The translations under genes and the position numbers were made by a program. From the NCBI RefSeq assembly GCF_030127145.1, contig NZ_CP126158.1, positions 2,108,001-2,172,000 on the forward strand: a DNA stretch of 64,000 nucleotides. The letters are read 5' to 3'. The notes under the pieces were generated by a model. The model made no database searches. It saw nothing but the letters and a program-made list of their open reading frames with translations, and had not been told where the DNA came from. The stretch comes from Halobaculum halobium. Its GTDB lineage: Archaea > Halobacteriota > Halobacteria > Halobacteriales > Haloferacaceae. Positions 47,016 through 52,662 of the stretch are shown here, in pieces (position 1 is the stretch's first letter; the number at the start of each line of letters is the position of its first letter).

Positions 47016-47294
47016 ATGGCTGAACAGACGAAGGCGCGGAAGGTCGGCAGCGCCGGCCGCTTCGGCGCACGATACGGGCGCGTCGCCCGCAAGCGCGTGT
47101 CGGACATCGAAGCAGAAATGAACAACGCGACGGTCGACGGCGACTCGGTCAAGCGCATCGGGACCGGCATGTGGGTCAACGAGGAGACCGGCGAGACGTT
47201 CACCGGCGGCGCCTACCGGCCGGAGACGCCCGGCGGCCGCTCGGTCCGCCGCAGCATCCGCGCCGCGCTCGAAGACGAAAGCGCCGACGAGTAA
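47016..47294 (+). CDS. rpl37ae: 50S ribosomal protein L37Ae without zinc-binding cysteines
   Basis: Ribosomal protein of the large subunit, 92 residues. The N-terminus ([22 protein letters not shown]) and C-terminus ([22 protein letters not shown]) are characteristic L37Ae/eL43. The zinc-finger Cys pairs of the family are missing: the whole protein has no Cys, and the usual C-x2-C positions hold NNATVDGD and VNEETGE. It heads a conserved archaeal cluster with rpoP, pcc1 and pfdB. Confidence 0.92.
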
Positions 47295-47312
47295 TCCCCG
47301 GGTCTCACACAG

Positions 47313-47447
47313 ATGAGCTACAAGTGTTCCCGGTGCAAGCGCGACGTCGAGCTCGACGAGTACGGCGGCGTGCGTTGCCCGTACTGCGGACACCGCGTGC
47401 TCCTCAAGGAGCGCGCGCCCGTCGTGAAGGAAGTCGACGTCTCCTAA
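47313..47447 (+). CDS. rpoP: DNA-directed RNA polymerase subunit Rpo12 (RpoP)
   Basis: Smallest zinc-binding RNA polymerase subunit, 44 residues: [12 protein letters not shown] and [11 protein letters not shown] give the two zinc-ligand Cys pairs, and the C-terminus [13 protein letters not shown] completes the family. The gene lies 18 bases after rpl37ae and 16 before pcc1. Size and motifs match other archaeal Rpo12. Confidence 0.95.
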
Positions 47448-47463
47448 CTCGGGCGGGGTCCCC

Positions 47464-47724
47464 GTGTCCGACGCGTACGACCACCACGCGGTCCTTCGCT
47501 TCCCGTACCCCGACGAGCGGCGCGCCCGCGTCGTCCACGAGGCAATCGGCGTCGAGGTCGGCGCCATCGACGACGACCGATCGACGGCGACGACGGACCT
47601 CGACGGCAGCGCCGTCGCGGTAACCGTCCGCGCGCGAGACCTCGTCGCGCTCCGGGCGGGCGTCAACACGTGGACGCGGCTCGTCGAGACGGCCGAAACC
47701 GTCGCCGCGGCCGCAGAGTCGTAG
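47464..47724 (+). CDS. pcc1: KEOPS complex subunit Pcc1
   Basis: Dimerising subunit of the KEOPS complex that, with Kae1 and Bud32, makes threonylcarbamoyl-adenosine 37 in tRNA. The 86-residue protein begins from GTG at 47464. The region TATTDLDGSAVAVTVRARDLVALRAGVNTW fits the Pcc1/CTAG fold. The position between rpoP and prefoldin beta agrees with archaeal gene order. The other KEOPS subunits are not in this window. Confidence 0.9.
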   Translation: MSDAYDHHAVLRFPYPDERRARVVHEAIGVEVGAIDDDRSTATTDLDGSAVAVTVRARDLVALRAGVNTWTRLVETAETVAAAAES

Positions 47725-47811
47725 CGTCGCCGGTTTTCGCTCGTTCGCTCGCTCCGCTCGCCATCACATCCAATGGCCGGGCTTTTCACCCCGAAGCCCA
47801 ACTGCCTGAGT

Positions 47812-48213
47812 ATGCAGGGTAATCTGCCGCCGGAAGCACAAGAGAAGATCGAGGAACTGCAGGACCTTCAAGAGCAGGCCCAGCAGCTCGCCGAACAGAA
47901 GCAGTCCACGCAGACCTCGCTGACGGAGGCGCAGTCCGCGCTGGACGCGATGGAGGACATCGACGAGGACTCGACGATGTACCGCGAGGTCGGCGAGATC
48001 CTCGTCGAGACCGACTACGAGACCGCCTACGACGACCTCGAGGAGAAGGTCGACACGCTGGAGCTGCGCGCCGAACGCTTCGATTCCCAGGAGGAGAAGG
48101 TCCAGCAGCAGTTCGAGGACCTCCAGGAGGAGCTCCAGCAGATGCTGCAGGGCGGCGCGGGCGGCGGCCCGGCGGGCATGGGCCCCGGCGGCCCCGGCGC
48201 TGGCGGCGCGTAA
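47812..48213 (+). CDS. pfdB: Prefoldin subunit beta
   Basis: Subunit of the hexameric jellyfish-like chaperone delivering unfolded proteins to the thermosome; 133 residues. It has two coiled-coil helices (about 8-50 and 75-115) with the beta-hairpin [20 protein letters not shown] between them. A Gly/Pro/Met-rich tail follows. The ATG at 47812 is chosen because the family starts [14 protein letters not shown]; the in-frame ATG upstream at 47773 has no conserved sequence. Confidence 0.95.
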
Positions 48214-48216
48214 GCC

Positions 48217-48477
48217 GTGAGCGACGACCGCCCCGAGCCGACCGACGAGGAGGTCGTCGAGACCGCCTCCGAAGCGGCCGAAGGGGTCGTGCTCGCGCGG
48301 TATCGACAGTCTGAACTCCGAGACTTCGACGTGACCGTCTCGTTCGAGGACGGCGTGCTCGACGTGGACGTGTACGTCAATCCGCCGGCCGACGCCGAGG
48401 CGGACGCGGACGAAGTTGCCGAGGAAGCCGTTCGCGCGGCCCGCGACGCCGTCGACGAACTGTTCGGAGTCGCCTAA
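48217..48477 (+). CDS. DUF3194 protein
   Basis: Acidic protein of 86 residues next to prefoldin beta, three bases downstream. It has an alpha-beta pattern with the middle block DVTVSFEDGVLDVDVYVNPP. This family has no known function and accompanies pfdB in many archaea, suggesting a link with the prefoldin or KEOPS systems. The start is GTG at 48217. Confidence 0.85.
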   Translation: MSDDRPEPTDEEVVETASEAAEGVVLARYRQSELRDFDVTVSFEDGVLDVDVYVNPPADAEADADEVAEEAVRAARDAVDELFGVA

Positions 48478-48565: not shown

Positions 48566-48775
48566 ATGGCAGCCCGAGGAACCGGCGGGACGACCGCGCT
48601 CGACGTGTACCGCGACCGCCTCCGGGAGGCGCCCACTTGTCCGGAGTGCGGCTACACCGACAACGGCGGTGACTGGCAGACCGCCTACCGCGAGCGACAG
48701 CTCGTCTACAGGCACAGCTGTCCTCGCTGTGCGGCCGTCGAGACGCGTGTGTTCCGGCTCGACGGCGCGCGATAG
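48566..48775 (+). CDS. Small zinc-finger protein (HVO_0649-like)
   Basis: Protein of 69 residues with CPEC (about 25-28) and CPRC (about 52-55) forming one zinc ribbon; the sequence between has WQTAYRERQLVYRHS. From memory it resembles the haloarchaeal HVO_0649 family, whose gene sits near pfdB in Haloferax, and the same order here supports that. The function is unknown. Confidence 0.78.
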   Translation: MAARGTGGTTALDVYRDRLREAPTCPECGYTDNGGDWQTAYRERQLVYRHSCPRCAAVETRVFRLDGAR

Positions 48776-48892: not shown

Positions 48893-50359
48893 GTGACACC
48901 CGCAGGCGACTCGCCCTCACGCGGCGTCCTCCTGATAACGGTCGATTCGCTGCGCGCCGACGCACTCGGCCCGCACACGCCGACGCTGCGCGAGCTCGCA
49001 CGCCGCGGGACGGCCTTCGAGACGGCCGTCGCGGGCGGCAACTGGACGCCCTTCTCGTTTCCCGACCTCCTCGGTGCGCGCCCGGTGTTCGCCGACGCAT
49101 CGACGCCGGGACCGGCCGCCGATCCGACGCTCGCGGAGGCCCTGTCGTCGGCAGGCGTGCGCACCGCCGGCGTCAACGCCGGAAACGGCTTTCTCACGGA
49201 GTACTACGGCTACGACCGCGGTTTCGACGCGTTCGAGTCGTTCCTCGACGGCGCCCGCACGCCCGTCGGGCGCTTTCTCACCACCCACCCGACGGTCAAC
49301 GGCTGGGTGCAGTACCTCGGTTGGCCGCTCGGCAACGCGGCCGCGCGCCTCCGCGGACACGAGCGCCGCCACGCGGTCGACACGTCGCACCTCCACGCGC
49401 TCGAACGCCGGGCGCTCGACGCGGTCGACGCCGCCGCCGCGGACGACGATCAGCCGTTCTTCCTGTGGCTCCACTACATGGACACGCACACGCCGTACGT
49501 CCCCGCGCCGCGGCACGTCCGCGCGGTCACCGACGGCGAGATCGGGTCGTTCCAGACGCTGCTCGGGCACCTCCGCGCCGGGCTCGGCAAGGAGGTCGAC
49601 GAGGGGACGCTCCGCACCCTACGGGCGCTGTACGACGCTGCGGCCCGGCAGGTCGACGAGTCTGTCGAGCGCGTGCTCGGGGAGCTCTCGGCGGCGGGGC
49701 TGCGCGACGAGACCACCGTGATACTGGCGGGTGACCACGGTGAGGAGTTCCTCGACCACGGCCACCTCGCGCACTACCCGAAGCTGTACGATGAACTCGT
49801 CCGCGTTCCGTTCATCGTCGACCACCCGGGTGCGCCGGCCCGACGCGAGTCGGCGCCGGTGCCGCTTCGGGACGTTCCGCCGACCGTCTGCGACGCGCTG
49901 GGGGTCGAGGCGCCCGCGGCGTTCGCCGGCGAGAGCCTCCTGCCGACGGTGACCGAAGCCACTCCGCCCGAGCGCGGGCCGGTCACCTCGATCGCGTTGC
50001 GCGGCGAGTCGGTGACGAGCCAGCCCATCCCCCGCCGGCTCGGCGACGGCACGCCGCTCGTCTCGGCCCGGACCCGCGAGTGGACGTACATCCGCGAACC
50101 GGACGGTGAGGTCCGCGTATTCGACCGCAAGCGTGACCCCGGAGAGCGGGACCCGGTCGACCACGACCGCGTTCCGGCCGACGCGTTTCGCGACCTCGAA
50201 CGCGCGGCCGACGATCGCCTCGCGCTTCTCTCCGACGCCGGCGACGTGGGGACCGGAGATGACACCGGCGGTCACGACGGCGAGGGGGAGGCGACCGACG
50301 CGGACGACGAGGTGCCCGACGAGATCGGACGCCGACTCGACGCGCTCGGCTACCGCTGA
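48893..50359 (+). CDS. Sulfatase-superfamily protein without formylglycine motif
   Basis: Alkaline-phosphatase-superfamily hydrolase, 488 residues. Metal ligands appear in LLITVDSLRADAL (Asp near 18), MDTHTPY and AGDHGEE (Asp and His near 282). The position of the sulfatase C/S-x-P-x-R motif holds NWTPFSFPDLL, so formylglycine chemistry looks absent; Thr may be the nucleophile as in related phosphodiesterases. No signal peptide or anchor is visible. The start is GTG at 48893. Haloarchaeal relatives often lie in glycan regions, but none is nearby. Confidence 0.85.
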   Translation: MTPAGDSPSRGVLLITVDSLRADALGPHTPTLRELARRGTAFETAVAGGNWTPFSFPDLLGARPVFADASTPGPAADPTLAEALSSAGVRTAGVNAGNGFLTEYYGYDRGFDAFESFLDGARTPVGRFLTTHPTVNGWVQYLGWPLGNAAARLRGHERRHAVDTSHLHALERRALDAVDAAAADDDQPFFLWLHYMDTHTPYVPAPRHVRAVTDGEIGSFQTLLGHLRAGLGKEVDEGTLRTLRALYDAAARQVDESVERVLGELSAAGLRDETTVILAGDHGEEFLDHGHLAHYPKLYDELVRVPFIVDHPGAPARRESAPVPLRDVPPTVCDALGVEAPAAFAGESLLPTVTEATPPERGPVTSIALRGESVTSQPIPRRLGDGTPLVSARTREWTYIREPDGEVRVFDRKRDPGERDPVDHDRVPADAFRDLERAADDRLALLSDAGDVGTGDDTGGHDGEGEATDADDEVPDEIGRRLDALGYR

Positions 50360-50419
50360 CGGCTAGATTTCACGCGGGCTGATCCGAACGTATTTGTACG
50401 AACCCGAGACAGCGGGTGT

Positions 50420-51193
50420 ATGGTCGAGGCGTTCGCGGTGGCGAGCGGGAAAGGTGGCACCGGCAAGACCACCTCCACGCTCGCGCTCGGGATGGCGCTC
50501 GCACGGCGGTACGACGTGACCGTCGTGGACGCCGACACGGGCATGGCGAACCTCTTGTTTCACGCCGGACTCGCGGACGCCCCAGTCACGCTTCAGGACC
50601 TGCTCGCCCCGGAGGGCGCCGACGGCGTCGACGTCACCGACGCCACGTACGAGCGTCACGGGATGCGCGTGGTCCCGTGCGGCACCAGCCTCGCGGGGTT
50701 CGAGCGGTCGGACCCGGCCCGGTTGCGGGCGGTCGTCGCCGAACTCGCCGCGGACACGGACGTGCTCCTGCTGGACTCGCCGGCGACGCTCGCGTCCAAG
50801 TCGGCGGTCCTGCCGATCGTGCTCGCCGACCGCGTGGTCGTCGTCACCCAGCCGACAATCCCAGCGCTCTCAGACGCGCTGAAGGTGCAGGAGTACGCCG
50901 CCTCCTACGGCACGGGGATCGCGGGCGTGCTATTCAACAAGGTCCGCGGCGACCTCGGCGCAGTCGGCGACCAGGCCGAGCGCTACTTCGACGGACCGAC
51001 GCTCGGGTCGATCCCCGAGAGCGACGCCGCCCGGGCCGCTCGCGACGCCGGCGAGCCGTTGGTAGCACACGCGCCCGACAGCGAGGCCGCCGAGGCGTAC
51101 CGCGCGGCGGCCGCCGGGATCGACCCGCGGCCCAACGCCGCCGGCGAGGTCGCCGACCGCTTCCGGAGCGCGGTCGTCCCCGAGCGCCCATGA
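50420..51193 (+). CDS. MinD/ParA-family ATPase
   Basis: Deviant Walker A ATPase of 257 residues: KGGTGKTT at 11-18, with TVVDADTGMANL (switch I region) and VLLLDSPA (Walker B). It lacks a clear C-terminal membrane-targeting helix of bacterial MinD. Several MinD homologues occur in haloarchaea; only some have known roles in positioning of surface machinery. The next gene overlaps by four bases (ATGA) and is probably a functional partner. A GTATTTGT element lies about 28 nt upstream of the ATG. Confidence 0.9.
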   Translation: MVEAFAVASGKGGTGKTTSTLALGMALARRYDVTVVDADTGMANLLFHAGLADAPVTLQDLLAPEGADGVDVTDATYERHGMRVVPCGTSLAGFERSDPARLRAVVAELAADTDVLLLDSPATLASKSAVLPIVLADRVVVVTQPTIPALSDALKVQEYAASYGTGIAGVLFNKVRGDLGAVGDQAERYFDGPTLGSIPESDAARAARDAGEPLVAHAPDSEAAEAYRAAAAGIDPRPNAAGEVADRFRSAVVPERP

Positions 51194-51792
51194 CCGGGGC
51201 CAACGGATCGACGCCGCCCGCGACCGCGCCCGTCCGCGAACACCTCCCCCGCGGCGACCTCGTCGGCGCCCGCGTCGCCACCGACTTCGCCGCCCCGCTG
51301 GCGGCGTCGCTCGAGGACGGACTCACCGGGTATCTCCGACTGGAGCCCGGCGACGCCCTGCTGGGCGCCGACGGGGGCGAGGCCGTGATCACGCTCGCGG
51401 ACGGGGTCCCCGTCCTGGCGTACGACGCCGGCGGCGACGCCGACGGCCCGGCGGCGCTGGCGGCGCTCGCGGGAACGACGCCCGTTCGCGTGGAGCGATA
51501 CCGGCTCCCCGCCGACGCGCTGGCGCCGCTACACGACACTTCGGACGGTCACAGCGAGCCCTTCCGGGTCGCCCCCGGGGCGCCGGCCCGCGAACTCACG
51601 GGCGACGAGGCGCTCGCTGAGCGAACCCGAGCGGCCGCGCCGCCGGAGCGCCGCGGCGCCGGCGGTGACCACGACGCGCTGGCGGCGTTTCTCGCCGACG
51701 AGGAGCGCGTCGAGGCGGTTCGCCGCGAGGCGCGGGCGGAAGCGCGGGCTCGCGCTGACGAGTGGGGGCTCGCCGATCAGCTCGCGGAGTAG
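51190..51792 (+). CDS. Unknown protein coupled to the MinD-like ATPase
   Basis: Protein of 200 residues with no family recognised. An N-terminal region (about 15-115) has an alpha/beta pattern with YLRLEPGDALLGADGGEAVITL, and the C-terminus (about 150-200) is a charged helix rich in Ala, Arg and Glu (VRREARAEARARADEWGL). The start overlaps the MinD-like stop as ATGA, so the two are translationally coupled; a role with that ATPase is inference. The charged helix could be a coiled-coil contact. Confidence 0.75.
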   Translation: MTGANGSTPPATAPVREHLPRGDLVGARVATDFAAPLAASLEDGLTGYLRLEPGDALLGADGGEAVITLADGVPVLAYDAGGDADGPAALAALAGTTPVRVERYRLPADALAPLHDTSDGHSEPFRVAPGAPARELTGDEALAERTRAAAPPERRGAGGDHDALAAFLADEERVEAVRREARAEARARADEWGLADQLAE

Positions 51793-51846
51793 CCGGGTCG
51801 CGGCGGAACCGGGGCAGCTACGGTCGCCGAGCCCCTCAGTCGGGCA

Positions 51847-52662
51847 GTGACGCTGCTCCGACTCTTGGCCGCCCGCGAGACGGCGGACTTCGCCGAGTGG
51901 TACCGGGCGGGCGCCGAGTACACCGACCGGGTCGCCGCAGGCATGGGGTTCGACCGCGACGGCGCCGACGCGACCGGCCGCGACCCGGTGGCTGAGCCGG
52001 GGCAGACGGTCGTCGCCCTCAGCGAGGGGCGGACCGATCTGTCGCCCGCGACGGCGGGGGTCGTCGCCGCGACGTACCTCGGCGACGCCGCCTTCGGCCG
52101 GCCGTTCCTGGCGTACACTCCACGGTGGTATCGGCTCGCGCTCGCCGGGCCGGTGGCGCTCGCGGCGCGTCGCCTCCGCCGGGTGGCGCGGCCGTTTCGC
52201 GATCGCACCGCCACCGGCGACGGCGGTGCGGGCGACGGTCGTACTGACCACGCGACGCCGGGTCGAGAGCCCGAGTTCACGCCGCCGTCGGGCCTCGCCG
52301 TCGGCGCCGACGCGGTCGCCGCCGTGCGCGACGCCGGTGGGATCGAGGCGTTCGAGCGATCGTTCGTGCTTGCGGACGCCGTGTTGCACACGGAGTGGTT
52401 CGCACACGTCGCCGGCGCCGCCGGGATCGTGGTGCCGGCGGACCTCGTCGAGCGCACGGTTCGCGAGTCCGCCGCCTACTACACCGGCCGCCGGGAGGAC
52501 CTCTCGCCGGACGTGTGTCGGTTCCAGCGGCTGCTGTTCGCCGACGATGCGTGGGTCCGGGACGTCGACACGAGCTATCGGCTGAACTCGGCGCTGTTCG
52601 GGGCCTGGGAGCGAATTCTCCGCGAGGAACGGCGCCGGCTCGACCGCGCGGACCGCGGGTGA
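51847..52662 (+). CDS. Unknown protein, third gene of the MinD-like cluster
   Basis: Protein of 271 residues, not recognised. It is mostly helical and soluble by composition; the residues TPRWYRLALAGPVALAARRL (about 90-110) are the only hydrophobic stretch. The C-terminal third has conserved-looking RFQRLLFADDAWVRDVDTSY. A disordered Gly/Asp-rich linker lies at about 120-145. The start is GTG at 51847, 54 bases after the previous gene, so cotranscription is possible. No enzyme motif is seen. Confidence 0.65.
   Translation: MTLLRLLAARETADFAEWYRAGAEYTDRVAAGMGFDRDGADATGRDPVAEPGQTVVALSEGRTDLSPATAGVVAATYLGDAAFGRPFLAYTPRWYRLALAGPVALAARRLRRVARPFRDRTATGDGGAGDGRTDHATPGREPEFTPPSGLAVGADAVAAVRDAGGIEAFERSFVLADAVLHTEWFAHVAGAAGIVVPADLVERTVRESAAYYTGRREDLSPDVCRFQRLLFADDAWVRDVDTSYRLNSALFGAWERILREERRRLDRADRG

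Follow-up and report, generated by a model that had tools for sequence, protein, structure and literature searches.

The closest described relative of the locus reported here is the MinD2/HVO_0596 gene pair of the haloarchaeon Haloferax volcanii. Loss of MinD2 in this species alters cell shape and motility and leaves arrays and motors misplaced (PMC11588486, 2024). A second study saw motility and the localisation of CetZ1 altered, and rods that were normal at the early log stage (PMC11621097), so that the passages of the two papers that deal with MinD2 differ on shape. HVO_0596 is likely co-transcribed with MinD2 and conserved alongside it in haloarchaea, and the former paper presents it as functionally uncharacterised, with no domain named in the sections that introduce it (PMC11588486). 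An AlphaFold 3 prediction in the same source places the two proteins in contact via both C-termini, with an interface predicted template modelling score (iPTM) of 0.83. Here we analysed the corresponding pair, with the same gene order and partner, in a 64-kb stretch of the Halobaculum halobium genome (all 64,000 nucleotides of which are called the window below), where minD2 is followed by a gene that we term P2. We propose, with a probability of about 0.68, that minD2 and P2 make up a positioning unit of two genes in which P2 would be a dedicated cofactor of MinD2, and that this unit would be a reduced form of an older archaeal module of MinD, a DUF2226-like protein and roadblock proteins.

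A first-pass annotation of this DNA had placed three open reading frames (ORFs) here, namely a MinD ATPase, a 200-residue protein overlapping it by four bases, and a 271-residue protein (P3) 54 bases later, and our reading of the locus agrees with this layout. It had also assigned the genes to an undescribed positioning system; the pair, however, already appears as MinD2/HVO_0596 of H. volcanii in the relevant sections of a published article (PMC11588486). In a full-text search of open-licence PubMed Central, HVO_0596 was found only in that MinD2 work (preprint and article). New here are the counts of MinD2–P2 co-occurrence, the finding that P3 does not track MinD2, the kinship of P2 with DUF2226 together with its link to MinD elsewhere, and the retention of the pair in genomes without a detected archaellin. 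The features of the pair are as follows.

50420–51193, + strand: minD2, ATG start, a MinD/ParA ATPase of 257 residues, judged the orthologue of HVO_0595
50447–50470, + strand: the motif GKGGTGKT of MinD2 (residues 10–17), read directly, which we take to be a deviant Walker A motif
51137–51190, + strand: C-terminal tail of MinD2, AAGEVADRFRSAVVPERP; 72 of 76 tails follow the pattern VA.RF[RK][SA].V or come near it
51190–51193, + strand: ATGA overlap of exactly four bases between the stop of minD2 and the start of P2
51190–51792, + strand: P2, 200 residues, judged the orthologue of HVO_0596 and, by conservation, gene order and joint decay, a dedicated MinD2 partner
51247–51549, + strand: N-terminal domain of P2 (about residues 20–120), mixed alpha/beta, a distant relative of the DUF2226 N-terminal domain
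51664–51765, + strand: C-terminal helical region of P2 (residues 159–192), conserved, with RA-EW at its end

The CbiA/MinD domain (PF01656) of the window ATPase scored 66.5 bits against a cut-off of 25.4 bits, and this match together with GKGGTGKT places the protein in the MinD/ParA family. Against TIGR01969 (archaeal MinD, NCBIfam minD_arch) it reached 187 bits (E value 3e-55), below the curated cut-off of 201.75. We therefore file it under the broader ATPase family and by orthology, as a close relative of that model. Six named Haloferax genomes each hold one match of 74% identity, directly upstream of the P2 orthologue; the remaining Haloferax matches are 30–41% identical, and one 53% match spans residues 5–58 only. 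Between the Haloferax counterpart and the second FtsZ gene lie 9.7–12.7 kb in each of the six genomes. The best-scoring FtsZ gene is 142 kb away in H. massiliensis and the second 10 kb; the corresponding distances in H. marinum are 134 kb and 13 kb, with further MinD genes on the opposite side at 247 and 333 kb. The next MinD gene shares a contig with the counterpart in three of the six genomes, and the longer distances are interrupted by contig breaks in some of them. These distances fit the numbering of H. volcanii as given in the relevant parts of two papers, HVO_0717 (FtsZ1), HVO_0595 (MinD2), HVO_0581 (FtsZ2), HVO_0322 (MinD4) and HVO_0225 (MinD1) (PMC8406309, PMC11588486), and the window pair was therefore taken as MinD2 and HVO_0596. 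By sequence and gene order the window ATPase is thus the orthologue of H. volcanii MinD2, an assignment made through sister Haloferax species; H. volcanii lies outside our 80 named haloarchaeal loci. P2 is conserved in haloarchaea and, in 79 of these 80 loci, sits directly downstream of minD2 on the same strand, which identifies it as a member of the HVO_0596 family; the 80th locus starts at a contig end. The spacing between the two genes is −4 in 70 of the 80 loci, and on clustering of the ORFs MinD2 and P2 formed the sole group present within the flanks of all 80.

The co-occurrence of the two genes was counted in a family set of 148 genomes, with MinD2 accepted at E values up to 1e-60 and P2 up to 0.001. 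MinD2 was found in 126 genomes and P2 in 131; both were present in 126, MinD2 alone in none, P2 alone in five and neither in 17 (two genomes missing from the match list of the MinD2 search, G113 and G132, were taken as having no match). By its conservation in 131 of 148 genomes P2 is a real gene. The five genomes with P2 and no MinD2 are G003, G052, G054, G055 and G113, and the four that were inspected (all except G054) show only remnants. In G055, MinD2 residues 1–107 and P2 residues 59–172 are gone; in G113 both genes are fragmentary, the P2 pieces lying 1.6 kb apart; G052 and G003 hold a P2 remnant, and MinD2 was not found in the inspected region. The P2 match of G054 covers residues 16–152 in an assembly of some 450 contigs. 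An order set of 195 genomes, which overlaps the family set in part and in which MinD2-type genes were defined by an identity of at least 64%, had MinD2-type genes in 110 genomes, P2 in 107 and both in 105. The P2 matches without MinD2 were here the G055 remnants and, in G286, a piece at a contig end. MinD2 without P2 was seen at a contig end in G290, and in G232 and G250 with a frame that diverges from the family past about residue 210; two further cases are taken up below. The first-pass annotation had suggested that the coupled gene encodes the effector or cargo adaptor, a role that is putative; as a conserved partner of the ATPase P2 is borne out: it is present in 126 of 126 MinD2 genomes of the family set, it decays jointly with MinD2, and its domain is found near MinD beyond haloarchaea.

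Some loci depart from the two-gene arrangement. In two of the 79 loci with MinD directly upstream, MinD2 and P2 share one frame: in Haloferax sulfurifontis (L075, 5143–6606) a C-run exceeds that of relatives by one base, and a haloarchaeal metagenome-assembled genome (L134, 4807–6525) lacks residues at the junction; these are either natural fusions or assembly errors. One genome (G026, locus L218; G026:C1:51587-52884) has two MinD2 copies with P2 after each, the second P2 being spread over three frames.

The AlphaFold2 model of P2 has a mean predicted local distance difference test score (pLDDT) of 87.7 and a predicted template modelling score (pTM) of 0.74. Residues 23–115 are modelled as a mixed alpha/beta domain, and the C-terminus is helical and includes a long helix inside residues 159–192. 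Neither Pfam nor NCBIfam contains a family that P2 matches at E 0.001. Searches for relatives of the P2 and P3 alignment members in Pfam, and of their profiles among the PDB sequences, yielded only stray rows at E 0.026 or worse, and the best PDB sequence match for either protein, at E 0.033, was not accepted as a relative. The structure searches against the PDB were likewise without a clear match to a solved fold for P2 or P3; for P2 the best Foldseek E value was 0.94 and the best Z score 3.4, over 67 residues at 4.3 Å. The alignments used were A1, with the window P2 and 20 of 29 other loci (two partial and seven similar loci being left out), and A2, with the window and 56 of the 80 named loci. 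Among the 57 haloarchaeal P2 proteins none matched PF09987 (DUF2226), even at E 1, and none matched PF14332 (PATAN/DUF4388), so that P2 belongs to neither family as they are defined.

Profiles were also compared with one another. The P2 profile matched a methanogen MinD-linked domain with a probability of 94 (E 1e-7), and the methanogen domain matched a DUF2226-type profile with a probability of 98 (E 1.5e-14). Compared directly, P2 and the DUF2226-type profile (five proteins of one distant family) gave a probability of 79 (E 1.6e-5), and P2 and a Methanocella-like protein one of 93; P3 against the P2 domain, the negative control, gave 0.1. Since the tie rests on a profile–profile relation, we call P2 related to DUF2226 and not a member of it. 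By these comparisons, which cover the N-terminal domain only, the N-terminal domain of P2 is a distant relative of that of DUF2226 (PF09987, archaeal, of unknown function), the likeness being bridged by methanogen intermediates. A full-text search of open-licence PubMed Central returned no paper on DUF2226.

We then turn to the surroundings of the domain in other archaea. A search of 246 genomes of the phylum with the P2 profile matched 32, of which only G336 lies outside the order (E 1.2e-5). Its cluster encodes a roadblock/LC7 protein (PF03259, E 2.1e-6), the P2-like protein, a third protein and a MinD that is 39% identical to the window MinD. Such a cluster is present in all four genomes of that class in the set, which are probably relatives of Methanocella as inferred from their hydrogenase neighbours. 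A domain profile (A4) was built from the haloarchaeal and Methanocella-like groups and used to search 392 genomes at E 0.01. It matched 73, including 22 genomes with weak matches besides the haloarchaeal P2 proteins and the four Methanocella-like ones. The regions of 20 of these 22 were inspected, two same-order matches with stops (G178 and G204) being left out; G354 carries a second weak match. A MinD gene was present within the 6.5–8 kb inspected in 15 of the 20 regions, and these 15 represent five of the six families. In 14 of the 15 it is on the same strand, across a gap of 548–720 bases that contains an ORF of 164–208 residues; in G157 it is convergent. The gap ORF starts with a hydrophobic stretch, as judged by eye, and the three examples run against Pfam gave nothing at E 0.001; a resemblance to roadblock proteins is a visual impression only.

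A separate LC7-like ORF was present in eight of the 20 regions, four with and four without MinD. Pfam was run on five of these eight and named Robl_LC7 in all five, in L233 below the cut-off. By eye, the N-terminal part of the Methanocella-like LC7 protein had looked P2-like; the comparison gave a probability of 0.8, and this candidate was dropped. DUF4388 (PF14332), which we take to be the same domain as PATAN, matched below the cut-off in P2 relatives (E 0.0016 and 0.2) and in one LC7 protein (E 0.048). The roadblock genes could bear on what P2 does. Instead of being an adaptor for cargo, it could serve MinD2 as a sensor or regulator, in which case the DUF2226-like domain would take a putative signal, from roadblock/LC7 proteins in other archaea, and set where or when MinD2 is active. 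All four Methanocella-like clusters link the domain to roadblock/LC7 genes, as do the eight other regions, half of which also contain MinD. Under the published growth conditions cells might do without a regulator. The other 12 of the 20 regions, however, have no separate LC7-like ORF, and the link covers non-haloarchaeal regions only. We consider this role possible, if on the unlikely side.

In a first tree of MinD proteins, from which matches shorter than 180 residues were left out, MinD2 and the P2-linked MinDs stood apart from the other sampled haloarchaeal MinDs with a support of 99/88. For a second tree ten near-copy or long-branch rows were left out and two solved archaeal MinDs added. 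These joined the P2-linked side, and the larger group held at 96/91. The trees fit MinD2 as the haloarchaeal form of the canonical archaeal MinD. They are compatible with an ancestral link between MinD and P2, and we do not take them as proof of it, because the solved MinDs fall beside the P2-linked ones, the methanogen MinDs in the trees are the P2-linked ones only, and long branches are present.

A number of observations weigh against a MinD2–P2 unit with an ancestral module behind it. In the order set, G198 and G294 carry a full-length MinD2 with no P2 detected and are two real exceptions to the pairing. As both retain the MinD2 tail, the tail would not be there for P2 only. The co-occurrence counts of MinD2, P2 and P3 are uncorrected for phylogeny. 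The distant matches to the domain are individually weak (E 1.6e-7 to 7e-3), and five of the 20 regions, those of the sixth family, have no MinD in the region; two of the five proteins of this family were scanned and match DUF2226 (PF09987) at 3e-40 and 3e-25. A C-terminal helix common to the haloarchaeal and methanogen proteins was rejected, as no sequence relation was found (probability 0.1). The tree program warned of long branches in both trees and, in the second, of their meeting, the MinD2 group being among them. Finally, deletion of HVO_0596 left growth, shape and swimming unaffected and the protein itself showed a diffuse localisation; in the sections on HVO_0596 the authors take their experiments to indicate that the two do not interact directly (PMC11588486).

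These experimental results, and the retention of MinD2 without P2 in G198 and G294, are what would be expected if P2 were translationally coupled to minD2 and co-inherited with it, yet did not act on MinD2. Against this, MinD2 and P2 decay jointly in two genomes that keep P3, and in other archaea the domain is tied to MinD by a gene order of independent kind; we regard coupling without an action on MinD2 as improbable. The first-pass annotation had named the absence of partner genes where the ATPase is present as a finding that would speak against its proposal. Such absence is found for P3, as detailed below, whereas for P2, beside a full-length MinD2, it is confined to G198 and G294 of the order set.

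In the two-gene unit that we favour, MinD2 would be the ATP-switched part and P2 its dedicated cofactor, translated from the overlapping start codon. The conserved C-terminal helix of P2 probably holds MinD2 at its conserved C-terminal tail, and the DUF2226-like N-terminal domain may offer a docking surface for cargo, a landmark or a signal. Given the null phenotype of the HVO_0596 deletion, docking or coupling would not be essential for shape or swimming in the tested conditions. The ancestral module would have comprised MinD, a DUF2226-like protein and a small protein with a hydrophobic N-terminus, with roadblock/LC7 proteins in several lineages; the haloarchaeal unit would be its reduced form, with P3 as a neighbour. 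We infer here binding of MinD2 and P2 in the cell, the direction of control between them, the role of the N-terminal domain and descent from one ancestral module. MinD2 is among the few known players in the definition of poles by archaeal cells. That its operon partner matters, although the deletion gave no phenotype, is suggested by the joint decay and by the recurrence of the domain next to MinD in methanogens, and P2 gains a domain, relatives and a testable docking model. The roadblock and small hydrophobic-start proteins of the methanogen clusters are candidates for the missing half of archaeal MinD function.

A likeness exists to the bacterial polarity modules with PATAN/DUF4388 and roadblock (MglB-type) proteins, in that an NTPase is joined with a roadblock partner (for PATAN proteins see the relevant parts of PMC11580455). 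The NTPase of bacterial MglA/MglB is a Ras-like GTPase, whereas here it is MinD. Archaeal type IV pilus loci have been described with FleN/MinD (arCOG00589) genes nearby and, separately, with roadblock (arCOG02603) genes nearby; the passages concerned mention neither a P2-like domain nor a MinD–P2–roadblock cluster (PMC4858521). Tentatively, one may picture an ancient archaeal polarity module with MinD in the place that the Ras-like GTPase takes in MglA/MglB, a DUF2226/PATAN-like adaptor, roadblock proteins and a membrane-anchored subunit. MinD2–P2 could then be its stripped-down descendant, now placing CetZ1 and, where present, archaella and chemoreceptors.

The presence of the pair was also compared with that of archaellin (PF01917) in the family set, where G133 and G143, missing from the match list of the archaellin search, were taken as having no match. 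MinD2 is present in 16 of the 22 genomes with no detected archaellin, an absence that does not prove non-motility, and P2 is kept there too. Conversely, MinD2 is missing from 16 of the 126 genomes with archaellin (Fisher p 0.1). On these counts a strict tie of MinD2 and P2 to swimming was rejected. As the pair is kept in genomes with no detected archaellin, archaella are unlikely to be its sole purpose.

The third ORF of the locus follows P2 on the same strand.

51847–52662, + strand: P3, 271 residues, GTG start, all-helical, a neighbour not judged part of the system

P3 occurs in 108 of the 148 family genomes and by this conservation is a real gene. Its model is all-helical with a pLDDT of 90.2, and against the PDB gave a best Foldseek E value of 0.36 and a best Z score of 3.6, over 149 residues at 6.7 Å. 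At E 0.001 P3 matched nothing in Pfam and NCBIfam; a single Pfam row came up at E 0.29. Its alignment (A3) holds the window and 32 of 38 P3 rows, two of 40 P3 matches being partial. The first-pass annotation had counted all three genes as one undescribed positioning system. P3 lies within the downstream flank, after P2, in 40 of the 80 named loci, and the 54-base distance on one strand in the window would suit such a system. The distribution of P3 tells otherwise. MinD2 and P3 occur together in 95 family genomes, MinD2 only in 31, P3 only in 13 and neither in nine (Fisher p 0.12), so that 31 of 126 MinD2 genomes lack P3 and 13 of the 22 genomes that lack MinD2 have it. It is intact in G052 and G055 despite the decay of MinD2 and P2; in G003 it is present with an in-frame stop, and in G113 none was found. 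In two genomes without MinD2 (G045 and G073), P3 adjoins L37Ae, Pcc1-like and prefoldin genes, which make up most of the cluster upstream in the window. By the co-occurrence counts, the persistence after decay and this separate siting, P3 was rejected as a MinD2 partner, and a three-gene system appears highly improbable.

The start position of P3 varies in its codon: the window and 14 of 38 named loci have GTG there, and the other 24, nearly all of them Halorubrum (L080, L082 and L083 being among the 24), have ATC. In five ATC loci examined closely there was no in-frame ATG, GTG or TTG nearby, and the ATC is a possible conserved non-standard start.

Upstream of minD2 one further element was noted by direct reading.

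50391–50398, + strand: TATA-like TATTTGTA, its centre about 25 bases 5′ of the minD2 ATG

A putative promoter at TATTTGTA would fit transcription that begins at the minD2 ATG or close to it. A scan of the window detected no tRNA (ARAGORN) and no Rfam match at gathering scores. A sulfatase/phosphodiesterase-like gene (48893–50359) shares the strand of minD2 and ends 60 bases before it. Before the sulfatase-like gene lies a zinc-finger gene of the HVO_0649 family (48566–48775; 76.7 bits against a cut-off of 70), while the H. volcanii numbering puts HVO_0649 some 50 genes away from minD2. Further upstream, 47016–48477 holds the L37Ae-like, Pcc1-like, prefoldin beta and DUF3194 genes, the last two assigned by Pfam and the first two named by eye.

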